Source: Paralichthys olivaceus
Taxonomy: Eukaryota > Chordata > Actinopteri > Pleuronectiformes > Paralichthyidae
Length of the DNA: 64,000 nucleotides
Direction of reading: 5' to 3'
NCBI RefSeq assembly: GCF_024713975.1
Contig: NC_091108.1
Location: 4,145,001-4,209,000 of the forward strand
Of the stretch, positions 59,701 through 62,700 are shown piece after piece. A model generated the notes under the pieces. It did not search any database, was not told where the DNA came from, and saw only the letters and a list, made by a program, of their open reading frames with translations. How positions within the stretch are numbered: the first letter of the stretch is position 1; each line of letters begins with the position of its first letter. The translations under genes were made by a program, and so were the position numbers.

Positions 59701-62700
59701 TCTCCTTCTCTCTGTCTAGTTTCTATCTCTTCTCTTGCTTCTTCTTCTCTTTCAGCTCCTTCTTTCGCCTCTTCTCTGCCTCTTTTTTTGCTTTCTTTTG
59801 CTCCTTTACTTTCGTTGCCTTGTCCTTGTCGCTCATCAAGGCCAGTTCCTGAAAAGACAAAGACGAGTGTGTTTAGATGTTTTCTCTTTCAAAAGTCTTA
59901 ATAAAAAACAAACTTAAAGTGCAACTAGTTCTTATTCAAATCAAACGGAGCTGATGTGACTTACCTGAAGCTTGATCTGTTTCAGGATGAGCATCTTTAT
60001 GTCGGCCTCGTACTTGGCCGCCCACATCTGCTCAGTATCACTGACCAGTCTCTCCAGCTCCTTGATTTTTACTAAGCCAGCCTCCTTCTCCACCTGCTCA
60101 CAACTGAGATGGTCCTCCAGAGCGTGAACTTTTGTCTCCCACTCAGTCTTGTTCTGGAGGATCCTGGTCTCGGTGGCTTGCTGTATGGAGATTAATTTCT
60201 GGTTTCTGGCTTCCAGTGCTATATTCTGACTGGTGAGACTGGCGATCATCTGATCCGTATGGACAATTTTAGCCTCATGCTTGGTCACCCACGTCTCTTC
60301 TGTGACCTTGAGCAGTCTCTCCAGCTCCTTGATTTTCAAGAAGCCTGCCTCCTTCTCTGCCTGCTCACGGCTGAGCTCGTCCTTCTGAGCCTTGATTTTG
60401 ATGAACCCATCCTTCTTCTCTGCCTTCTCACGGCTGAGCTCGTCCTTCAGAGCCTTGATTTTGATAATGCCAGCCTTTTTCTCTGCCTGCTCACAGCTGA
60501 GCTCGTCCTTCTGAGCCTCGATTTTAATGAAGCCAGCCTTCTTCTCCGCCTGCTCACGGCTGAGCTCGTCCTTCAGTGCCTGGATGTTAATGAAGCCAGC
60601 CTTCTTCTCTGCTTGCTCACGGCTGAGCTCGTCCTTCAGAGCCTTGATTTTATTGGAGCCAGCCTTCTTCTCCGCCTGCTCCCTGCTGAGCTCGTCCTTC
60701 AGAGCCTTGATTTTGAAGAACCCATCCTTCTTCTCCGCCTGCTCACGGCTGAGCTCGTCCTTCAGAGCCTTGATTTTGAAGAACCCATCCTTCTTCTCCG
60801 CCTGCTCACGGCTGAGCTCGTCCTTCAGAGCCTGGATTTTCATTAACCCATCCTTCTTCTCCGCCTGCTCACGGCTGAGCTCGTCCTTTAGAGCCTTGAT
60901 TTCTGAGCGCCAGTCAGGCTCGTTCTGGGGAACTTTTGTCCCCATAGCTTTAAGCTCGGTTGTGAGCTCATCAATTTGTTTGTCCAGTGCCTGTTTCTCA
61001 TGCAGAGTCCTGTCGATGACCTGTTCCCTCTGTTTTATCGAGTACTCCAGCTCATTCACCTGGTTGCCCTTTTGCTTCAGGTCACGTCTGATCTTGTGGA
61101 TCTCTGCCTGCTGGCTTTGATTACGAGTACTCAAAGACCTGTACTCCTTCTCTTGGATCCTCAACTCCTTCTTGGCATCCTTTAGATCAAGCTCTAGTTC
61201 CTCTTTGAGTCTTTCAAAGTCTGCATTCTGCATGCTCTCCTTTTCTTTCCGCCATGTAGCTTCTTTGCAGGACATGGCCATCCTTAAACTGGCATTTTCA
61301 TGAGCCAGATTCAAATTCTCAGAGTCCAACTTTTGTTTCGCTTCAAGGAGGTCCTCAAACAATTTCTCGGAGTCTGGAACCTGAAAGACACAAACATATA
61401 ACAGTTAAAAACATAGTCCCACACTCACTTTGAATTAAATGTTGATGAACCAGACCAAAACAAATCATTGATTTAACCACCAGTACATTTAAATACAGTT
61501 TCTTCAATTCTGTTAAATACAGTCTCTACATACTAGGGATGTCACGATATGAAATTTTGGTGCCGATTATTGTCAGAGGAAATATCACGGTTTCACGATT
61601 TACACGATTATTGATTAAATGAAAAACAAACAATACATAGCTAATAGTATAGCTAATTAACTACAATATTTATTATTATTATCAACTATATCCAGTTAGT
61701 TTTTATAGTGTAACATTTGGCTATTTAAAAGTAATTTATGTAAGCTGTTTCATTTAGTTGCCTTATTGTGGAAGGTTGGTCGGTGAATTTGTGTATCCTG
61801 TCATCATAAGCAGTATATCTGTATGGGACGTTTATTGTGTGTGTGTGTGTGTGTGTGTGTGTGTGTGTGTGTGTGTGTGTGTGTGTGTGTGTGTGTGTGT
61901 GTGTGTGTGTGTGTGTGTGTGTGTGTGTGTGTGTGTACACGTGCTGGTCAGAAACCGAAAGTAAACAAGTTTTTCTCCTCTCGCTGTGAACTCCTCTGAT
62001 GGAGTTCTTGTCCAGCGTTGGTGGAAATAAGGTTGTAAGTCATTTCCCTCTTCTCAACTAACGTTTCAGTGGCTCGTCCACACAAATTACGTGACTTGCG
62101 AGAGATTTCACCACACGGTGCACACACAAATTAAAAAAAATCACTAGTATGCTAATGCTGGCATTCTAGCGTTAGCACCAATGTGATGGGTTTGTTTAAA
62201 GTCCATCCCCTCGCAGAAAAATATTTTCAGAGTTTGAGACAAACAATGGAAAAATAAAATAAAATCGTGTAAAGTGTAACACTAAAAAACATGTTTCCTG
62301 TTTAGAAACCTTACCCTTTTTGACTTGTTCTTCGGCATGTTTGCTAAATACAGGAATAGTGTAGGTTTACTGAAGTATATTCTGTCTTCTGACGGTCTCG
62401 TGTATCAAAGATTTGTGGATCTGTGGTCTAGTTTTGGAGCTGTTGTCCTCACAAGGTCTTCTCCCGAGCTCTTATAGGCACTGAACCTGGCCTTGATGGC
62501 TTTGAAGTCCAGATAAATGACATTTAACAATCAAGGTCAAATATGACATCATAGACACTGTCACATGGGACATTATAGACACTTTCACATGTGACATCAC
62601 AGAAACTGTCACATGTGACATCACAGACACTTAAATGTGATATTAAGCAAACAGTTTTCCATGATATAAGCCCTATGAGGCAAATTATGATAAGTGAATA

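Follow-up and report, generated by a model that had tools for sequence, protein, structure and literature searches.

A three-exon gene that is nested, on the opposite strand, within a WD40 gene's intron belongs to a family that is most likely an ampliconic, gene-bearing macrosatellite, encoding a coiled-coil rod and amplified by dosage need or germline conflict. The gene lies in a stretch of 64,000 nucleotides, called the window below (C16:4145001-4209000), within an assembly of 588 Mb and 25 contigs. An earlier note on this DNA had described it as a complete, unrecognised coiled-coil gene nested antisense in one intron. The description as a complete, coding, unrecognised coiled-coil gene, antisense to a WD40 host, is upheld. 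The idea of a single nested gene stood only in part: the gene itself exists, yet the exon-1 places of its family number at least 801.

Gene model and host gene

An exact gene model confirmed the three phase-0 exons, the 521-aa product, the TATA box and the poly(A) signal that had been proposed from the letters (Table 1). The lengths of all three exons are multiples of three. Both introns are GT-AG, with AGG/GTAAG and CAG/GTAAG at the donors and TTTCAG/GTT and TTTTCAG/GAA at the acceptors (slashes mark the exon boundaries). The gene model is far beyond chance: every one of the 22 dispersed copies for which three exons were read, spread over five contigs, has the same exons and splice sites. Inside intron 1, about 50 TG dinucleotides follow one another without interruption (window 61836-61936).

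Table 1. Features of the nested gene and its surroundings, in window positions
Feature	Position	Strand	Remarks
WD40 (presumed pak1ip1) exon upstream of the nested gene	58660..58757	+	WD40 match
Outer limits of sequence common to the C16:4.54 Mb cluster	58983..63387	.	left limit from its first copy, right limit from its last
Poly(A) signal AATAAA	59645..59650	-	
Exon 3	59723..59848	-	126 nt including stop, phase 0, basic Lys-rich C-terminus
Intron 2	59849..59964	-	116 bases
Exon 2	59965..61380	-	1416 nt, phase 0, 472 aa predicted coiled coil, nine 21-aa repeats
21-aa (63-base) tandem repeat block, within exon 2	60327..60902	-	
Intron 1	61381..62314	-	934 bases
Exon 1	62315..62338	-	24 nt, phase 0, encodes MPKNKSKR, GTAAG donor next
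TATA box (TATAAG)	62471..62476	-	133-138 bases upstream of the ATG
TCAAGGTCA site	62531..62539	+	4 aligned array copies differ by one base
Four repeats of 24 bases, upstream of the promoter	62536..62631	.	two TCACATGTGA palindromes (62585, 62609)
First of three presumed pak1ip1 3'-exon copies, beginning	63803..64000	+	next copies at C16:4210849 and C16:4216387

The gene sits in an interval of 5,045 bases between the end of the WD40 exon at 58757 and the next exon start at about 63803. The host exons match WD40 proteins, and the search shows WD40 only; we take the host to be pak1ip1, presumably a gene of ribosome biogenesis. Its 3' exons occur three times (C16:4208804, 4210849 and 4216387), identical over 950 bases, and among and beyond them lie one truncated and two further full copies of the nested gene. 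The first two full gene copies here are identical over the first 500 bases of exon 2 and differ at 13 of the last 480. Because the host 3' exons are present three times, within C16:4208804-4217800 (locus L009, window 63804 onward), the claim that the gene lies wholly inside one intron is limited to copy one and the 3' exons closest to it. The beginning of the last pak1ip1 exon has a fourth match, at C16:4221472.

The segment around the gene is shared with other clusters. A weaker match to the flank of the C16:4.54 Mb cluster also occurs at 58817-58943; clusters of other chromosomes share the block only to about 59060-59150 on one side and 62841-63078 on the other, and for the arrays described below these limits are about 59388 and 62675. 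As parts of 58983-63387 flank another C16 cluster and the host 3' exons are triplicated, the position of the gene reflects a duplicated segment. Judging from these sequence matches, either a gene-bearing block would have landed antisense in the pak1ip1 intron and then been duplicated together with the last exons of the host, or the arrangement may partly be an assembly effect. An open frame at window 63424-63669, in the gap that separates the pak1ip1 exon from the shared block, presumably represents a fragment resembling LINE ORF1.

A family of dispersed clusters and arrays

Across the whole host assembly, a degenerate 29-base exon-1/donor pattern allowing at most one mismatch had 801 places (286 forward and 515 reverse), and the control had none. 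The exact pattern of the window type (MPKNKSKR) accounts for 23 of them, 4 on C1, 1 on C3, 12 on C16, 1 on C20 and 5 on C21, and two more window-type places at two mismatches are located in the C3 and C7 arrays. By subtraction from 801, the remaining places, about 780, belong to a sister type (MPKNKSGR). The start of exon 2 of the array type was found at 767 genome places (control 0), and the array-type places listed all fall either on C3, beginning at 28.49 Mb, or on C7, beginning at 26.37 Mb. A DNA search with exon 2, in which 40 of 816 candidates were scored, gave at least 94 matches on C1, C3, C6, C7, C16, C20 and C21. With the N-terminal part of the protein, all 150 scored matches, the best 150 of 1269 candidates, were free of stops; 22 of these were of the window type and 128 were on C7.

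Dispersed copies are spaced 2.9-7.6 kb apart within their clusters, and those on C16, C1 and C21 form one clade per chromosome. Their exon 2 differs from that of the window copy by about 2-10%. Intron 1 measures 336-934 bases in the 22 dispersed three-exon copies and 528-532 bases in the array copies read. At C16:10.195 Mb (C16:10195210) exon 1 is kept, with no recognisable exon 2 in the 3.3 kb read beyond it; this place was left out of the gene set, as were three C7 copies with no exon-2 match and one C7 copy whose exon 1 lay outside the locus. The match at C6:24.95 Mb (L022, C6:24947773 onward) was rejected as a gene copy: it is a diverged pseudogene with frameshifts, stops and repeated internal segments, and no matching exon 1.

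In the arrays, units of 2.5-2.8 kb with one gene each follow head to tail, successive places on C3 and on C7 lying on the same strand; in the C7 loci read, successive copies are 2.49-2.78 kb apart. Such kilobase-scale, head-to-tail units are those of a gene-bearing macrosatellite. The C7 array is not continuous: 4 kb sampled at 27.000 Mb contained no copy. At the ends of C3 and C7, the final 4 kb is matched from one side to the other by array loci (best 99.98% and 99.75%), with no run of telomere repeats in either. The count of 801 is thus a lower bound, because both contigs end inside array sequence. C7 open frames commonly differ in steps of 89 aa (328, 417 and 506 aa among the best-scoring N-terminal matches), and an array-type gene on C3 contains a 267-base internal repeat (L037 1719-2361).

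Over-expansion of haplotypes or repeats in the assembly could have made many of the copies and the triplicated host exons. The identity of the three pak1ip1 3' segments and the small mean difference between array copies, 0.4-0.6% over the first 500 bases of exon 2, fit such an artefact, but neighbouring copies have private differences, indels and unit-length variants, and the divergence of the dispersed clusters from the window copy speaks against it too. That the arrays stop at contig ends suggests under- rather than over-assembly. We regard an artefact as very improbable.

Carriage of the gene by a mobile element would explain the dispersal of copies over several chromosomes, and four UnaL2 LINE 3' elements, spaced like the units, were found by Rfam in L025, the only array locus given to it. 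A 3' insertion in the 4 array copies aligned holds a LINE tail; the insertion is, however, absent from the 7 dispersed copies aligned. Introns are kept, copies lie in local tandem clusters and block boundaries differ between clusters, all of which argue against carriage. No mobility protein was matched in Pfam or NCBIfam by the parts searched, and no relative emerged from viral contigs, where exon 2, scanned by its first 166 codons, gave 7 pattern stretches and 0 confirmed. A mobile carrier is therefore extremely improbable. Locus L009 gave nothing in Rfam, and no tRNA was found in the four loci scanned.

Promoter, poly(A) signal and CpG content

The sequence TATAAG is kept in 10 of the 11 copies aligned (7 dispersed and 4 array), the exception being an array copy with one base changed, and AATAAA is present in the poly(A) region of all 11. 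Repeats similar to the 24-base units upstream of the promoter occur in both array loci scanned for tandem repeats. We take the TCAAGGTCA site to be NR5A/ERR-like, with a presumed function; it was not relied on as a clue to tissue, being one base off in the array copies aligned.

Four array loci had an observed-to-expected CpG ratio of 0.28-0.34 and three dispersed clusters one of 0.37-0.48, compared with 0.58 +/- 0.11 for tiles of the window; the ratio was higher, 0.88, in intron 1 of two array copies. The CpG-poor arrays hint, indirectly, at methylation and silencing, although the dispersed clusters are low too and array intron 1 is not.

The protein and its repeats

The window protein is 44% charged and has a heptad periodicity of z=7.5, reached by 0 of 300 shuffles. 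AlphaFold2, run on the single sequence, predicted three long helices for exon 2, with breaks near residues 150-157 and 292-305 (mean pLDDT 74, pTM 0.24). The protein is thus predicted to be a charged, mostly helical coiled-coil rod.

Its unrecognised status, as claimed earlier, also held in the databases: no fitting family was found for the whole window protein in Pfam, or for N-terminal parts in Pfam, NCBIfam and PDB. Some matches stayed below their cut-offs and were rejected: in Pfam, a YpeD-like one of the whole window protein (20.9 bits, cut-off 27) and, with the array N-terminal part, rootletin (14.4 bits, cut-off 36) and tropomyosin (11.9 bits, cut-off 38.6); in NCBIfam, with the N-terminal part of the window protein, SMC (18.6 bits, cut-off 567). 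In the PDB, the N-terminal 176 aa yielded five weak matches (E 0.22-0.4). In Pfam, neither the whole window protein nor the N-terminal 197 aa of an array protein matched a homeobox, and neither the whole window protein nor the array N-terminal part matched a Cor1-like or CK2-beta-like domain, labels which we take to be those of the Stellate and Slx/Sly families. A topical search of the literature brought up some general works on multicopy families and no published description of the coiled-coil family, which is weak evidence since subscription journals were thinly covered.

The repeat block comprises 6-12 units in the 22 dispersed copies (198 units in total, 98 of them distinct). Among the distinct units, variation is concentrated at residues 16-18, with an entropy of 1.5-2.0 bits, and residues 2, 5, 6, 8, 11, 12 and 19 are nearly fixed. 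The hypervariable positions (Fisher p=9e-11) are a lead only, because the repeat units are not independent.

By analogy with Stellate or Slx/Sly, this could be an ampliconic conflict family of drive and suppression, in which dose would bias transmission or counter a biaser. The extreme copy number, the separate local clusters on several chromosomes and the concentration of nonsynonymous variation at residues 16-18 would fit; the variable residues, however, may stem from a small set of old variants that unequal crossing-over has shuffled. We consider such a conflict family possible but doubtful. A bolder version is improbable: the two assembled chromosome ends would hold hundreds of expressed, intron-bearing rod genes, among the largest coding arrays of vertebrates, and the triplet at residues 16-18 of the dispersed type would behave like a changeable recognition unit diversifying under germline conflict.

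Intactness of copies and selection

Each of the 22 dispersed three-exon copies that were read is full-length, at 458-577 aa and mainly 21-aa steps apart, if two with a one-residue C-terminal change are counted as such. Array copies were sampled from the loci fetched, which is not a random draw, and comprised 26 complete copies, 21 from C7 and 5 from C3; copies cut by locus ends were set aside (three without donor 2 and one without acceptor 2). Intact frames were found in 17, an altered C-terminus in 5 and breaks in 4, namely two frameshifts and two stops in exon 2. A coding frame in each unit, fully intact in those 17, likewise corresponds to a gene-bearing macrosatellite. In a neutral simulation of the Lys/Glu/Gln-rich, stop-prone frame, copies acquired a mean of 1.6-4.8 stops at 2-7% divergence, and runs without any stop fell from 23% to 0.3%; no stop was observed in the 22 dispersed copies, which are not independent, and this limits the comparison.

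For dN/dS we aligned the 44 copies with an uninterrupted exon-2 frame and compared eight representatives. Outside the repeats, the 15 pairs of dispersed copies (six representatives) had values of 0.15-0.38, and the 12 pairs of a dispersed with an array copy 0.34-0.41. A single array pair, C3 against C7, gave 0.83, with 1.86 in the C-terminal part (8 and 1 differences). The repeat block aligns with uncertainty; there, the 15 dispersed pairs divided into 9 with values of 0.30-0.59 and 6 with values of 1.04-1.67. Within the arrays (26 copies), 15 variants are nonsynonymous and 9 synonymous, where the sites stand at 409:92 (p=0.02).

Introns of six pairs diverge by 3-20%, 14 of the 18 values being 4.6-8.5%. 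In the same pairs, codon positions 1+2 of exon 2 diverge by 3-11%, about the intron level, and 4-fold sites by 15-29%. Because nonsynonymous-type divergence is close to intron divergence and 4-fold sites are higher still, dN/dS overstates constraint, and a simple reading of purifying selection is weakened by the intron comparison. As far as sequence comparison can tell, the protein is coding yet fast-evolving, dN/dS alone exaggerates constraint, and the evidence for selection overall is mixed.

A largely silent macrosatellite is the main rival reading. Its arrays would have arisen neutrally by unequal crossing-over and be mostly silenced, and only a few dispersed copies, the window copy perhaps among them, would make protein. 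The low CpG content of the arrays, the 9 of 26 sampled array copies that are not fully intact, the C3-C7 pair at 0.83 and the match between nonsynonymous and intron divergence are all consistent with it. On the other hand, most sampled array copies are intact although single changes easily give stops, nonsynonymous variants are in deficit within the arrays, and the array copies aligned keep the TATA box in 3 of 4 cases and AATAAA in 4 of 4. We judge neutral amplification to be unlikely.

The reading that we prefer, and hold to be fairly probable, is a coding family with 23 dispersed exon-1 places, of which 22 have the complete set of exons, and a sister type in macrosatellite arrays, amplified by dosage or conflict. 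Each complete unit is a compact gene with a TATA promoter, three exons and a poly(A) signal. Copies would have spread by segmental duplication and then multiplied via unequal crossing-over, with conversion keeping every cluster alike, and the protein would be made, most likely in the germline or early embryo. That dosage demand favoured the amplification is quite possible, though short of probable.

Comparison with known systems

Copy number times unit length puts the arrays at about 2 Mb, and arrays of this kind may easily be collapsed or masked by ordinary annotation. The case also shows that a whole macrosatellite family may stand behind one gene nested in an intron, and that 3' exons of the host, here pak1ip1, may undergo duplication together with the nested gene. 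As far as is known, it is rare for a vertebrate coding gene to have hundreds of complete, near-identical copies, and such numbers usually point to extreme dosage demand or germline genetic conflict.

D4Z4/DUX4 is a gene-bearing macrosatellite whose kilobase coding units lie in tandem near two chromosome ends as near-identical copies, and the fish arrays resemble it in their coding units, tandem order and near-identity; as they run to the assembled ends of two contigs, they may also be near chromosome ends. They differ in that their units have their own promoter, two introns and a poly(A) signal, in their approximately 780 array copies, and in encoding a predicted coiled coil where DUX4 encodes a homeodomain.

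In fish, antifreeze-protein arrays have a dosage reading, and the copy number here is higher than theirs. Those arrays are reported to show tandem amplification with copy-number variation (PMC13032017), and to that extent tandem amplification in a fish is common to both; the sequence here is a Lys/Glu charged coiled coil and not an antifreeze sequence. Stellate/Su(Ste) and Slx/Sly are amplified multi-copy coding families which are explained by dosage-mediated conflict (PMC10618873). On that description the fish family is likewise amplified, multi-copy and coding, but a matching domain was not found in its protein (Pfam; whole window protein and array N-terminal part). TSPY reportedly exceeds all other protein-coding genes of man and cattle in copy number, reaching 74 and 200 copies, respectively (PMC4489747). 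By this account mammalian TSPY and the fish family are alike as very-high-copy tandem arrays of a coding gene; the fish family encodes another protein, has more copies and occupies at least two chromosomes.
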